From positions 62,001-126,000 of the forward strand of contig NZ_FWWW01000091.1 in the NCBI RefSeq assembly GCF_900176135.1: a stretch of 64,000 bases of DNA. Direction: 5' to 3'. Below are positions 41,176-45,887 of the stretch, piece after piece. A program made the position numbers and the translations under genes. Every line of letters starts with the position of its first letter. Position 1 is the first letter of the stretch. The notes under the pieces were generated by a model. It ran no database searches, was not told the DNA's origin, and worked only from the letters and a program-made list of their open reading frames with translations. The stretch comes from Hymenobacter roseosalivarius DSM 11622 (GTDB lineage: Bacteria; Bacteroidota; Bacteroidia; Cytophagales; Hymenobacteraceae).

Positions 41176-41248
<73 letters not shown>

Positions 41249-41257
41249 CACGGTACC

Positions 41258-41739: not shown

Positions 41740-43479
41740 ATGCGAGAAAATAAGATTTCTTCCCCTACTGTTTTGTCTATGTTACCTAAAGTCCGAACGG
41801 GAATTGAAGGACTGGACGAGATTACCGAAGGCGGCCTACCCGAGGGGCGCCCCACTTTGATATGCGGTAGTGCCGGGTGTGGTAAAACCCTGATGGGTAT
41901 CGAGTTTCTGGTAAGGGGCGCGCTGGAGTATGGCGAGCCCGGCGTGCTAATGGCTTTCGAGGAAACCGCCGAAGAGCTCACGGCCAACGTGGCTTCTCTG
42001 GGCTTCGACCTGCCGGCCCTGCAAGCCCAGAAGCTGCTGCGGGTTGACCATGTACACGTAGACCGCTCGGAGATTGAAGAAACCGGCGAATACGATCTGG
42101 AGGGCCTGTTTATCCGGCTGGGGTACGCCATCGACTCGATTGGGGCCAAGCGCGTCGTGCTGGATACGATAGAGGCCTTGTTCGGAGGTTTTCCGAATGA
42201 AGCCGTGCTGCGCTCGGAAATCCGCCGCCTGTTTCGCTGGCTGAAAGAGAAGGGCGTGACCACCATCATCACGGCCGAGCGGGGCGATGGTACCCTCACC
42301 CGGCAAGGGCTGGAAGAGTACGTGTCGGACTGCGTGATTCTGCTGGACAACCGCGTTATCGACCAGATTACGACCCGGCGCCTGCGGGTGGTGAAGTACC
42401 GTGGCAGCACCCACGGCACCAATGAATACCCTTATTTGATCAGCGAAGACGGCATTTCGGTGCTGCCCGTTACCTCGCTCAAGCTGGAGCACGAGGTATC
42501 CGATCAGATCGTGTCTTCCGGGATTCCGGCCCTGGACGAGATGTTTGGCCGGCGGGGCTTTTACCACGGCAGCAGTATTCTGTTTACGGGTACGGCGGGC
42601 ACGGCCAAAACAACGCTCGCCGCGGGGTTCGCCCATGAGGTTTGTAAACAGAATAAACGCTGCCTGTATTTTGCCTTCGAAGAATCGCCGCAGCAATTGG
42701 TGCGCAATATACGCTCCGTTGGAATCGATCTGGAGCCCTGGCTAACGCAAGGCTTATTGCACATCGAAGCCTCCCGACCTACCATGAATGGCCTGGAAAG
42801 GCATTTGGTCATTATTCATAAGCTGGTCAGGGAGATGAAACCGGATGCCGTCGTAATTGACCCGATCAGTAACCTGATCAACGTGGGCAATATGAACGAG
42901 GTGAGCAGCATGCTTACCCGGCTGATTGATTTTCTGAAGGTAAATGACATTACTGCCTTATTCACGTCTCTGATCAGCGGCGGCCGTACCAGTAAGCTGG
43001 ACGCGACGGAAGAAGCGGTGTCGTCGTTGGTAGATACCTGGATCAGCGTGCGGGACCTGGAGGGAATCGGTGAGCGCAACCGCGGACTGAGCATTCTCAA
43101 GTCGCGGGGCATGTCTCACTCCAATCAGGTGCGGGAATTTATTATCACCGATCAGGGCATTCAACTACTGGATGTGGTGATAGGTCCGGCGGGCATCGTG
43201 ACCGGAGCTGGCCGCCTCACCCAGCAGCTACAGGCTCAGGCGCAGGCCCTGGCCGTGCAGCAAGAGCTGGAGCGGAAGGACCGGGAGCTGGAGCGCCGCC
43301 GTCGGGTACTGGAAGCTACCATTGCCAATCTGCGCACGGAGTTTGAGTCGGTGGAGGAGGAGCTACGGCGGATAAATAATGAGGAGCAAACCCGTCAGCA
43401 GATTTTTTCGCAAGGACAAACGTCAGGCGTCAGCGAAATGCTAGCGCGCAAGGCTGACAACCAACAACATAATCAGTAA
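41740..43479 (+). CDS. kaiC: KaiC-like double-RecA ATPase/autokinase
   Basis: A 579-residue protein with both KaiC lobes. CI (about 15-245): Walker A GSAGCGKT 43-50 and catalytic Glu pair E74-E75 (AFEETAEEL). CII (about 255-490): Walker A GTAGTAKT 284-291, where the usual second Gly is Ala, and Glu pair E314-E315 (FAFEESPQQL). The clock phosphosites Ser431-Thr432 of S. elongatus align with Ser428-Ser429 (EEAVSSLVDTWI). In the cyanobacterial clock KaiC phosphorylates and dephosphorylates itself in a daily rhythm. The C-terminal tail (about 490-579) is a Gln/Glu/Arg-rich coiled coil instead of the KaiA-binding peptide, fitting the absence of kaiA. First gene of the kai operon. Confidence 0.93.
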   Translation: MRENKISSPTVLSMLPKVRTGIEGLDEITEGGLPEGRPTLICGSAGCGKTLMGIEFLVRGALEYGEPGVLMAFEETAEELTANVASLGFDLPALQAQKLLRVDHVHVDRSEIEETGEYDLEGLFIRLGYAIDSIGAKRVVLDTIEALFGGFPNEAVLRSEIRRLFRWLKEKGVTTIITAERGDGTLTRQGLEEYVSDCVILLDNRVIDQITTRRLRVVKYRGSTHGTNEYPYLISEDGISVLPVTSLKLEHEVSDQIVSSGIPALDEMFGRRGFYHGSSILFTGTAGTAKTTLAAGFAHEVCKQNKRCLYFAFEESPQQLVRNIRSVGIDLEPWLTQGLLHIEASRPTMNGLERHLVIIHKLVREMKPDAVVIDPISNLINVGNMNEVSSMLTRLIDFLKVNDITALFTSLISGGRTSKLDATEEAVSSLVDTWISVRDLEGIGERNRGLSILKSRGMSHSNQVREFIITDQGIQLLDVVIGPAGIVTGAGRLTQQLQAQAQALAVQQELERKDRELERRRRVLEATIANLRTEFESVEEELRRINNEEQTRQQIFSQGQTSGVSEMLARKADNQQHNQ

Positions 43480-43494
43480 GCCCCGTATCCGGTA

Positions 43495-43827
43495 ATGGAA
43501 ACTTCCCCAGCTAGTACAACAGAAGGCATGGATAAGAACTGTTGGGAACTGCGTCTGTACATAGCCGGCCAGACCCCTAAGTCAGTGGCCGCGCTGGCCA
43601 ATTTGAAAAAGTATTGTGTGCAGCACCTGCAAGGGCGCTATAAGCTGGAAGTCATTGACTTGCTAATAAACCCTCAGCTAGCCGAGGGCGACCAGATTCT
43701 GGCTATTCCGACACTGGTACGAAAAGTGCCCGTGCCCATCCGCAAGATCATCGGCGACTTATCCAATGAGGAGCGCGTCTTGGTGGGCTTGGATATTCGG
43801 GCAGTTGTAGGCATCGCAACTCACTAG
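43495..43827 (+). CDS. kaiB: KaiB-like protein 1 (clock type)
   Basis: A 110-residue thioredoxin-like KaiB. After a short leader the sequence closely follows cyanobacterial Kai[61 protein letters not shown] and [12 protein letters not shown]. The last two blocks are the region that switches fold and docks on the KaiC CI ring in S. elongatus, and are well kept. It starts 15 bp after kaiC and ends 1 bp before the second kaiB, so the genes are tightly coupled. Likely the partner that drives KaiC dephosphorylation or senses its state. Confidence 0.94.
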
Positions 43828-43828
43828 A

Positions 43829-44170
43829 ATGGAGGCAGAGGAAAGGTTGGATCGAACACCGGCGGAGGCGGAGTACGTGCTTCATTTGTATATTACCGGC
43901 GCGACGCCTAATTCCTCGCGGGCCGTACGGAATATCAAGGAAATTTGTGAGCTGTACTTAAAAGGCTGCTACGAGCTGATTATCGTGGATATTTACCAGC
44001 AGCCTGCCCTGGCCCAGCAGGAACAGCTTATCGGAGTGCCCACCCTGGTAAAAAAACGCCCCGGCCTGGTGCGCCGACTGGTGGGCGACCTCTCAAACCG
44101 GGAACGGGTGCTGGCCGCGCTGGGGCTGCCCTTACTACCCGACAGCAACAGTGAAAGCAACAATGGCTGA
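43829..44170 (+). CDS. KaiB-like protein 2 (divergent)
   Basis: A 113-residue second KaiB. It keeps LHLYITGATPNSSRAVRNIK, YELIIVDIYQQPALAQQEQL and IGVPTLVKKRPGLVRRLVGD, but departs from the clock-type protein in the switch region (KKRPGLVRRLV instead of [10 protein letters not shown]) and ends GLPLLPDSNSESNNG, so its KaiC-binding mode may differ. Its stop overlaps the first codons of the histidine kinase gene, which suggests that it works with the kinase: in SasA the kinase carries a fused KaiB-like sensor domain, and here the two could be separate chains. That last point is inference. Confidence 0.9.
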   Translation: MEAEERLDRTPAEAEYVLHLYITGATPNSSRAVRNIKEICELYLKGCYELIIVDIYQQPALAQQEQLIGVPTLVKKRPGLVRRLVGDLSNRERVLAALGLPLLPDSNSESNNG

Positions 44171-45887
44171 AAGTCCGCCCCTTACTTCCACCGACCTGAT
44201 CCGTGAAAACGAGGAGCTGCGGTATCAGCTGCAGGAAGCGGAAGACCTCATTTCCGCTATTCGCTCGGGGTCGGTGGATGCGCTGGAGGTGCAGGGAACC
44301 GATGGGCCGCGCATCTTCACGCTGCAAGGTGCCGATCAGGTGTATCGCACCCTGATCGAACAGATGAGCGAAGGCGCGCTGCTGCTCAGTCAGGACGGCA
44401 TTATTTTGTATGGCAACGCCAGCCTGGCTACGCTGCTCGAAGGCGCGCTGGAGGCGCTGATCGGCGGCTCCTTTGCTGACTTTATTCCATCTGACTTTAA
44501 GGAGTACTGGGGGGCTTTATTGGTAAACGGCTGGGCCGGTAAAAGCAAAGGAGAAGTGCTGCTGCGAACCAGGGCGGGGACGCTGCTGCCGTTTTCGCTG
44601 TCGATGAACGTGCTGGAATTCAATGATGCGCCCGCCCTGGCCGTTATTATCACCAGTCTGTCAGCCCAACGGGAAATCAAGGCCATTCAGGCGCGGGTAG
44701 CCGAGCAGAACGCGGTAATTGACCGCAAAAACGAAGAGCTGAAGCGGCAGGAAGCCGCCCGCCTGCTAATAGAACAGGCTGCCGCCGAAGCCAATCGAAT
44801 ACTGGAGGGCATTCCGCAAATTGCCTGGACGGCTAACGCGCGGGGCGAAAACACCTACCTCAACCGCCGCTGGTTTGATTACATCGGCCGGCCCAGTAGT
44901 CCGGGTTCGGACGATGAGTTTCAGGCGCGTATGCACCCCGACGACGCGGGCCCGGCCCGCACACGCTGGCAGCAGAGCCTGCGCACCGGAGAAACATTTG
45001 AGATGGAGTACCGCTTCCGCGACAGGACCGATACGTATCGCTGGATGCTGGGCCGGGCGCTACCTTCCTACAACGAGCAGGGGGCAATTATGCAGTGGAT
45101 TGGTACCTACACCGACATTCACGAGCACAGGCTGGCCCTGGAGCGCATCGATCAGGCCCAGCGCCAGCTCCACGAAAACAACGAGCAGCTGACGCGCGCC
45201 AACGTAGATCTGGACAATTTTATCTATACCGCCTCGCACGACTTAAAATCGCCCATCAGCAACATTGAGGGGTTGTTGCAGGCCTTGCTGTCAGAAATGC
45301 CCCCCAGCCTTCAGGGGCAGCAGGAAGACCAGGTACAGCCCATCATGGCCATGATGCAGGACTCCGTGGAGCGGTTTAAGCGCACCATCGAACACCTGAC
45401 GGAAGTAACCAAGTTACAAAAAGAGCAGATTCAGCCCCTGGCAGTGGTGAAGCTGGGGCCAGTTATTGAGGACGTGCGGCTGGATTTAGCACCGCTGCTA
45501 CGCGAGTCGGGGGGCATTTTGGAGGTAGACGTGGTGGCTTGCCCGGCGGTGTCATTTGCCCAAAAAAACCTGCGTAGCGTCATCTATAACCTGCTTAGCA
45601 ATGCCTTCAAGTACCGTTCGCCGGAGCGTGCGCCGCATGTGTGGCTGCGGTGCTACGAAGAGAATGACTACGCGGTGCTCACGGTGCAGGACAACGGCCT
45701 GGGCTTGGACCTGATTATTAATGAAAAGCGGCTGTTCGGGATGTTTCAGCGCCTGCACGACCATGTCGATGGCAGCGGCATCGGGCTGTACATGGTCAAG
45801 AAGATGGTGGAGAACGTGGGGGGCAAAATTGAGGTGGAGAGTGAGATAGGCGTCGGCTCTGTCTTCACGGTGTACTTCAAACGGTAG
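44163..45887 (+). CDS. Double-PAS sensor histidine kinase of the kai operon
   Basis: A 574-residue soluble kinase without membrane helices. An N-terminal coiled coil (LIRENEELRYQLQEAEDLIS) leads to PAS1 (about 62-175), PAS2 (about 205-330; EGIPQIAWTANARGENTYLN, RRWFDYIG, with a PAC tail MQWIGTYTDIHEHR), a HisKA domain with His359 (FIYTASHDLKSPISNIEG) and a HATPase with N box (SVIYNLLSNAFKYRS), DNGLGLD and GSGIGLYMVKKMVE. The GTG at 44151 is an alternative start. No receiver domain or response regulator is adjacent, so its target is elsewhere. It is the presumed output or input kinase of the KaiBC module. Three GCCCCCC/GGGGGGC motifs lie in it. Confidence 0.92.
   Translation: MAESPPLTSTDLIRENEELRYQLQEAEDLISAIRSGSVDALEVQGTDGPRIFTLQGADQVYRTLIEQMSEGALLLSQDGIILYGNASLATLLEGALEALIGGSFADFIPSDFKEYWGALLVNGWAGKSKGEVLLRTRAGTLLPFSLSMNVLEFNDAPALAVIITSLSAQREIKAIQARVAEQNAVIDRKNEELKRQEAARLLIEQAAAEANRILEGIPQIAWTANARGENTYLNRRWFDYIGRPSSPGSDDEFQARMHPDDAGPARTRWQQSLRTGETFEMEYRFRDRTDTYRWMLGRALPSYNEQGAIMQWIGTYTDIHEHRLALERIDQAQRQLHENNEQLTRANVDLDNFIYTASHDLKSPISNIEGLLQALLSEMPPSLQGQQEDQVQPIMAMMQDSVERFKRTIEHLTEVTKLQKEQIQPLAVVKLGPVIEDVRLDLAPLLRESGGILEVDVVACPAVSFAQKNLRSVIYNLLSNAFKYRSPERAPHVWLRCYEENDYAVLTVQDNGLGLDLIINEKRLFGMFQRLHDHVDGSGIGLYMVKKMVENVGGKIEVESEIGVGSVFTVYFKR

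Follow-up and report, generated by a model that had tools for sequence, protein, structure and literature searches.

A kaiC-kaiB-kaiB-histidine kinase operon in Hymenobacter roseosalivarius, a candidate KaiA-less timer with its reader split over two proteins

The four-gene operon and its KaiC

We analysed a stretch of 64,000 nucleotides from Hymenobacter roseosalivarius DSM 11622 (contig NZ_FWWW01000091.1, positions 62,001 to 126,000; the window), which carries kaiC, two different kaiB genes (kaiB-a and kaiB-b) and a PAS-PAS histidine kinase gene, in this order and on one strand (Table 1). Open reading frames (ORFs) and Pfam both bear out this arrangement, which a preliminary description had reported: PF06745 matches KaiC over two stretches (E 2.8e-114), PF07689 (KaiB) matches the two KaiBs (E 1e-25 and 2.3e-22), and the families found in the kinase are HATPase_c, HisKA and PAS. 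The gaps are 15 bp between kaiC and kaiB-a and 1 bp between kaiB-a and kaiB-b. ATG 44163 is a likelier start for the kinase than GTG 44151, because the kinase of Hymenobacter qilianensis begins at a Met (MAEHLPP...) that matches this ATG. It does overlap kaiB-b, as first described, but from this start the overlap is about 8 bp instead of 20. A tRNA-Thr gene lies upstream of the operon (41176-41249). A scan for sigma-70-like promoters found none, this consensus type being uninformative for Bacteroidota. A Pfam search of the whole genome gave no match to KaiA and detected the Synechococcus elongatus positive control, in agreement with the preliminary description.

Gene order was surveyed at the kaiC loci of named genomes, namely the best 80 of 508 relatives, a set that leans to close kin. 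The preliminary description had proposed such a survey, and the order kaiC-kaiB-kaiB-kinase on one strand was found at 79 of the 80 loci; the sole exception (L097) stops at a contig edge. The fourth gene was identified by similarity to the window kinase, and Pfam, run on seven of the 79, found kinase domains in six and PAS domains only in the seventh (L104). The loci belong to Hymenobacteraceae (48), Sphingobacteriaceae (12), Spirosomataceae (5), Flavobacteriaceae (4), Chitinophagaceae (3) and others, one record being labelled Methanosarcinales archaeon; a genome from the phylum of that record has the same four-gene order on a 2.54-Mb contig. Among the matches listed, from which records very near the window genome may be excluded, the closest named KaiC is that of H. 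qilianensis (87%). Two KaiBs were also found in Pararhizobium, and one in Rhodobacter (Cereibacter) sphaeroides, Falsirhodobacter, Rhizobium BG4 and Sinorhizobium. The conserved gene order is not due to chance.

Among proteins of solved structure the top relative of the window KaiC is that of R. sphaeroides (605.8 bits), the next protein scoring 360.9 bits; some further KaiC chains in the same comparison, which we take to be cyanobacterial, score about 327 bits. The pairs E74-E75, E314-E315 and Ser428-Ser429, present as first described, align with R. sphaeroides E62/E63, E302/E303 and S413/S414 (numbered as in PMC10076222; the PDB chain index is two higher). Both Glu-Glu (EE) pairs occur in all 81 operon KaiCs (80 loci and the window), and the Ser-Ser phosphosites in all except one, which reads AS. 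The C-terminal tail past column 490 has a median of 90 residues, against 7 in another KaiC type. The window KaiC has the traits of the R. sphaeroides type: two ATPase domains, the EE pairs, Ser-Ser and a long C-terminal coil after the A loop. NCBIfam NF006799 (KaiC) matches at 729 bits, above its cut-off of 408, and TIGR02655 (circ_KaiC) at 353.7 bits, below its cut-off of 546.25; with this cut-off not reached and KaiA absent from the genome, the system falls outside the cyanobacterial KaiABC oscillators. Similarity scores and NCBIfam appear to rule out an archaeal-type or non-clock KaiC paralogue, a placement that the preliminary description had raised against itself.

The Ala that replaces Gly in the CII P-loop occurs in all 48 Hymenobacter rows, the window included, and in a few others, and may alter nucleotide binding by CII. 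KaiCs of two genera (g55 and g36; L153, L154, L172) end soon past column 490 and have no coil; their CII P-loop reads GxAGTSKTI, and their loci keep kaiB and a kinase with the N-terminal module listed in Table 1. Ten Bacteroidota genomes (L137, L138, L140-L142, L144-L148) have a solitary KaiC of the coiled-coil type, with Ser-Ser and EE pairs intact and no KaiB match genome-wide.

Table 1. Features of the kai operon (positions in the window)
Feature	Position	Strand	Basis
kaiC, two KaiC ATPase domains (CI, CII), 579 aa	41740..43479	+	ORF; Pfam; similarity to solved relatives; NCBIfam
kaiB-a, clock-type KaiB, predicted ground-state fold, 110 aa	43495..43827	+	ORF; Pfam; residues; AlphaFold2; Foldseek
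kaiB-b, predicted thioredoxin-like (fold-switched, SasA-like) KaiB, 113 aa	43829..44170	+	ORF; Pfam; residues; profile; AlphaFold2; Foldseek
PAS-PAS-HisKA-HATPase histidine kinase	44163..45887 (likely ATG); GTG 44151 possible (578 aa)	+	ORF; Pfam; start of relative
Ser428-Ser429 codons, equivalent to R. sphaeroides KaiC phosphosites S413/S414	43021..43026	+	Alignment; SS in 80/81 operon KaiCs
CII P-loop GTAGTAKTT, Ala replacing the usual Gly before Lys	42589..42615	+	KaiC alignment
C-terminal extension, residues ~495-560, aligned up to residue 553 with the R. sphaeroides dodecamer-forming coiled coil	43222..43419	+	Alignment
Kinase N-terminal module: coil, AIRxGxVDAL motif, [FY]TLxxADxxYRxLIExMxEGA; no Pfam family	44175..44390	+	Alignments; module searches

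Two kinds of KaiB

The two KaiBs of these operons differ at the residues of the ground state (81 pairs; R. sphaeroides numbering, with printed positions shifted by two to agree with the published one). KaiB-a has Ile, Leu or Met at position 68 (81/81), Val at 83 (80/81) and Gly at 84 (81/81). KaiB-b has mainly charged or small residues at 83 (K24 A16 R14 T11), varied residues at 68 (V25 E16 Q9 L8 I6) and A28 G24 L14 at 84. Pro65 is kept in both, 81/81 each. Introducing I68R/V83D/N84R into R. sphaeroides KaiB was described as shifting it from the ground state to a largely fold-switched state (PMC10808063).

AlphaFold2 (AF2) was given 23-row alignments of KaiB-a and KaiB-b from the same loci, and the fold was read from the best of five models. 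It predicts a thioredoxin-like fold for KaiB-b (predicted local distance difference test, pLDDT, 86) and the ground fold for KaiB-a (pLDDT 70). Foldseek places fold-switched KaiB on KaiC CI and a Legionella KaiB first for the KaiB-b model, and lists the SasA N-domain 13th, amid thioredoxins; for the KaiB-a model it puts 17 chains of crystal ground-state KaiBs on top, at template modelling (TM) scores of about 0.6 to 0.7. In a PDB profile search KaiB-b reaches SasA at E 0.01 (26 bits) and the KaiB-a profile does not. Both NCBIfam KaiB models score KaiB-a and KaiB-b under their cut-offs. KaiB-a is thus predicted to be a ground-fold KaiB and KaiB-b to have the KaiC-binding, SasA-like thioredoxin fold; with its PF07689 domain, ground-state residues and favoured ground fold, KaiB-a would fit a fold-switching KaiB.

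In trees KaiB-a groups with the single and cyanobacterial KaiBs (support 84, not strong), and a single KaiB-b clade is not rejected (approximately unbiased, AU, test p 0.62). These trees have few columns and many open forks, and 5 of 92 rows were dropped as long or stray (G056_a, Aquisphaera, Sphingobium, G205, G124); they do not favour a recent lineage-specific duplication of kaiB. Mean column identity is 63% for KaiB-b, against 80% for KaiB-a. A search for viral copies of KaiB-b confirmed none.

The kinase module, its linkage and its outputs

The module takes up about the first 70 residues of the kinase. Its AIRxGxVDA motif occurs in 85 of 87 neighbouring kinases examined, and the two kinases without it adjoin the other KaiC type. 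An alignment of 22 diverse modules has six invariant columns, and no Pfam family matched more than one of these rows (two single matches, both weak). Similar N-terminal strings may also occur in other alphaproteobacterial kinases.

Across Bacteroidota genomes the module is linked to this kai set. It was found in 28 of 395 genomes, all 28 with the R. sphaeroides-type KaiC, which is itself in 41 (Fisher 2.8e-33, uncorrected for kinship), and in 20/20 of the tandem-kaiB genomes. The 13 genomes with this KaiC and no module comprise ten without any KaiB genome-wide and three with one KaiB at the locus. These phylum searches scored at most 14 candidates per genome for the module and at most three for KaiC, and module absences there are less sure. 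In the family sample of 120 genomes, the 45 with the module are exactly the 45 with the R. sphaeroides-type KaiC, though kaiC is fragmented in one (G053) and cut short in the coil in another (G117); that the module is present in one copy each is taken from this search, in which all or nearly all candidates were scored. The other, shorter KaiC stands alone in 24 of the 120 genomes, is 35 to 39% identical, and comes each time with one KaiB match and without the module.

Plasmids (72,556 records) were searched with module-plus-PAS queries, since the 71-aa module as query found itself alone, missed known copies and so does not serve as a test of specificity. The Rhizobium query matched 13 records, identical to the 13 with an R. 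sphaeroides-type KaiC; R. sphaeroides strains account for nine. Sensitivity was lower with the Pararhizobium query, which failed to find most known copies and gave four records; two of these, in Methylobacterium (query residues 66-136) and Natronococcus (50-112), are matches elsewhere that are weak and partial.

What follows the module varies. Behind it stand HisKA, HWE (R. sphaeroides and Rhizobium BG4), HisKA_2 (G567) or receiver hybrids (Pararhizobium, METP1, G384), and in two genomes of one genus (g64; L152:7679-8845, L173:6827-8005) an HD_5 domain replaces the kinase. With the output domain swapped in this way, what stays the same is the module and the PAS region next to it, the first of the kinase. 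HD_5 is of the HD-GYP kind, a cyclic-di-GMP phosphodiesterase. The module on HD_5 would tie KaiBC timers to cyclic-di-GMP in one lineage, and an effect of cyclic-di-GMP on the clock of S. elongatus has been reported (PMC13001216).

A receiver-only ORF directly follows the kinase on the same strand in at least 27 of the 79 operons with enough sequence, the window included in the 79. This is a lower bound, three Hymenobacter receivers having served as queries, and a Pfam-confirmed receiver after one kinase (L089) was missed. The window operon has no such downstream ORF, and 14 matches to these receivers lie elsewhere in its genome.

Divergence of the module tracks that of KaiB-b rather than that of KaiB-a. 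In partial Mantel tests over 80 loci (80 of 81, L097 being left out here and from the kinase counts) the module correlated with KaiB-b, given KaiC and KaiB-a, at 0.47 (p 0.002), and with KaiB-a, given KaiC and KaiB-b, at 0.07 (p 0.15). The corresponding values were 0.36 (p 0.004) and 0.03 (p 0.41) without Hymenobacter (32 loci), and 0.48 (p 0.002) and -0.02 (p 0.52) with at most two loci per genus (23 loci). For the kinase core and KaiB-b they were 0.24 (p 0.002) in the full set, 0.06 (p 0.22) without Hymenobacter and 0.18 (p 0.06) with at most two per genus; for the first PAS region and KaiB-b, with the module also removed, 0.15, 0.22 and 0.19 in the three sets (p 0.004 to 0.016). Because partial Mantel tests are liberal and KaiB-b evolves faster, the pattern supports a putative contact between module and KaiB-b but does not prove it.

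Interpretation and comparison with known systems

We favour, with a probability of about 0.45, the reading that the operon encodes a KaiA-less KaiBC hourglass of the R. sphaeroides type, in which KaiB-a is the timer's KaiB, and KaiB-b and the module together are a SasA-like reader split over two proteins. In R. sphaeroides a coil joins two KaiC hexamers, autophosphorylation is independent of KaiA, and KaiB with a falling ATP/ADP ratio drives dephosphorylation, giving an hourglass (Pitsawong et al. 2023; PMC10076222). All steps of binding, phosphorylation and timing we infer, the first three from this relative. KaiC would form coil-joined double hexamers; at high ATP it would autophosphorylate on Ser428/Ser429; and rising ADP, together with KaiB-a slowly switching fold and binding the CI ring, would lead to its dephosphorylation. 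KaiB-b would need no switch and would remain in the KaiC-binding thioredoxin-like fold, as a counterpart in trans to the KaiB-like N-terminal domain that cyanobacterial SasA has in cis: it would compete with KaiB-a and read which state KaiC is in. It would relay this state to the coil/AIRxGxVDAL module, setting kinase activity, and the output would pass from the kinase through a single-domain receiver.

Several observations weigh against this reading. KaiB-b is not essential, since the module occurs beside one KaiB in 8 of the 28 genomes and, on plasmids, in R. sphaeroides and at three further loci. Conversely, three Bacteroidota loci combine the R. sphaeroides-type KaiC and one KaiB with no module, and three genomes of the archaeal phylum (G530, G540, G550; L157, L158, L159) have a coiled-coil KaiC with one KaiB and a module-less kinase that starts with a receiver. 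In G053 (L160) kaiC is broken and the frames of kaiB-a, kaiB-b and the kinase are intact. A KaiB-kinase fusion was sought in sets of 120, 60 and 395 genomes, a few of them shared, and no frame longer than 271 aa had an above-cut-off KaiB domain. As to the folds, a wider set retains Gly84 in 16 of 31 KaiB-b; KaiBs beside the other KaiC type are also without the ground-state residues, including the hydrophobic one at 83; the NCBIfam SasA model weakly matches both KaiBs (KaiB-b 2.4e-5, KaiB-a 6.4e-4); and AF2's reading of KaiB folds is disputed (PMC10836070, PMC10705582). As to the covariation, KaiB-b is tied to the first PAS region too and, over the full set of loci, to the kinase core; its faster evolution lets it carry more distance signal, and the kinase core correlates with KaiB-a at 0.16 (p 0.048) without Hymenobacter.

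The main rival takes the kinase as input, its PAS domains sensing oxygen, redox or another cue and setting KaiBC via KaiB-b, so that the KaiBs would be a timer KaiB and an input adaptor. A redox input has been put forward in print for the R. sphaeroides and Rhodospirillum rubrum kinases (PMC5520375; PMC10931921). The position of the PAS domains directly behind the module suits it, and co-occurrence and covariation are silent on direction. We nevertheless think it unlikely: the C-terminal parts that are swapped are effector ends (HisKA, HWE, HisKA_2, receiver hybrids, HD_5), and the downstream receivers suit an output arm. Nor is the LOV-type motif NCRFLQ present in the window kinase sequence.

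Slightly less likely still, KaiB-b could be no more than a redundant or dosage copy, able to switch fold like any other KaiB of the timer and next to the kinase for reasons of operon economy. One KaiB can evidently suffice where single-KaiB operons have the module, and both KaiBs keep Pro65 and match the KaiB family; set against this, KaiB-b looks like an old separate lineage, is mostly without ground-state residues, differs in predicted fold and is the KaiB with which the module covaries. That KaiB-b is a kinase adaptor independent of KaiC seems improbable. Some KaiB proteins are said to act in stress responses, G053 keeps its other three genes open next to a fragmented kaiC, and two genomes (G301, G490; L163:3917-8136, L165:3091-7309) have kaiB between two histidine kinases with no match to this KaiC at E 1e-60 in the phylum search; but this KaiC is kept in all 28 module genomes, G053 could be recent decay, and the G301 and G490 kinases do not match the module. 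A self-sustained circadian oscillator, with two KaiBs replacing KaiA, is hardly credible, for although KaiB-b could in principle be a second KaiC regulator, the genome has no KaiA and the nearest characterised relative was described as without temperature compensation or a self-sustained rhythm (PMC10076222).

The preliminary description had proposed a light- or energy-driven timer with its own kinase output. The favoured reading, a KaiA-less hourglass with a split reader, agrees with the energy drive and the kinase output; light would enter indirectly at best. A light-driven clock was not adopted: the Pfam domains of the operon include no direct light sensor, and rhodopsin matches lie only elsewhere in the genome. 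There are three bacterial rhodopsin matches (L176, L183 at G000:C74:133613-134272, L184), one of them about 26 kb beyond the kai operon and with an internal TAG. Rhodopsins are a possible route for light to change the ATP/ADP ratio.

Clusters of kaiC and kaiB outside the cyanobacteria have been surveyed before, in a paper (PMC3164672) that we take to be De Luca et al. 2011. Outside the cyanobacteria, kaiC-kaiB is nearly always followed immediately by genes for kinases or GGDEF/EAL proteins, and where kaiB is absent a KaiC-linked kinase family, Nt_HK, has a KaiB/SasA-like N-terminus (PMC3164672). Section 17 of that paper mentions neither a tandem of two kinds of KaiB nor the module. In Rhodopseudomonas palustris kaiC, kaiB and a PAS histidine kinase gene are predicted to be under one promoter, as might be compared with the window, but one kaiB is displayed there; its kaiC is needed for a growth benefit in rhythmic conditions (PMC4794148). 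The preliminary description held that such gene sets have no described function; this passes over the clusters in print and over the R. sphaeroides relative, whose structure is solved and which assays characterised as an ATP/ADP-driven hourglass independent of KaiA (PMC10076222). The window shares with that hourglass the C-terminal coil of about 50 residues, Ser-Ser, the EE pairs and the lack of KaiA (PMC10076222), as well as the kaiC-kaiB-kinase order and the same N-terminal kinase module; it differs in having two KaiBs instead of one and a HisKA instead of an HWE kinase. The main text of PMC10076222 mentions neither 'histidine kinase' nor 'operon'.

With cyanobacterial SasA, which competes with KaiB (PMC6769508), the window would share a thioredoxin-like KaiB homologue coupled to a HisKA kinase as a KaiC reader. 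SasA has its KaiB-like domain and kinase in one polypeptide; here the KaiB-like part is a separate protein, Pfam finds no KaiB match in the window kinase, the kinase has the coil/AIRxGxVDAL module and PAS, and the similarity to SasA is weak (26 bits). Legionella Lpp1115 (4kun) and KaiB-TV4 (8ubh) are, like the predicted KaiB-b, thioredoxin-like KaiBs, predicted or shown (PMC10808063; PMC11551320); these sources describe no operon that pairs them with a module kinase and a KaiB that switches fold. A 2017 survey found SasA homologues outside the cyanobacteria to have no KaiB-like domain, so that a different output must be used, and noted only KaiB2/KaiC2-like proteins in Bacteroidetes (PMC5520375). 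In the literature searched, mainly open-access, we found no description of a tandem KaiB pair of two kinds or of the module. The paired opposite KaiB folds, the shared module and its covariation with KaiB-b seem new; the differing predicted folds and the shared module go beyond the preliminary description.

More broadly, and more tentatively, the module read by a KaiB may be the common output interface of most timers with this KaiC type, plugged onto varied effectors (HisKA, HWE, HisKA_2 and hybrid kinases, HD_5 domain). Simple loci would use their single KaiB as reader, and the four-gene version a dedicated, fold-locked KaiB-b that would, with the module, again amount to a split SasA; after duplication of kaiB, timekeeping and reading would each have had a copy to itself. 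We would sooner bet against this generalisation than for it, and the three archaeal-phylum operons, which have this KaiC type with a module-less kinase, make it slightly less probable.

The locus is a concrete, testable candidate for the missing link between KaiBC-only timers and the cell, and named strains that carry it are at hand in Hymenobacter, Mucilaginibacter and Flavobacterium, among others. Its two KaiBs, paired by nature within a single operon and with predicted opposite resting folds, would also be useful for studying the gain and loss of fold switching.

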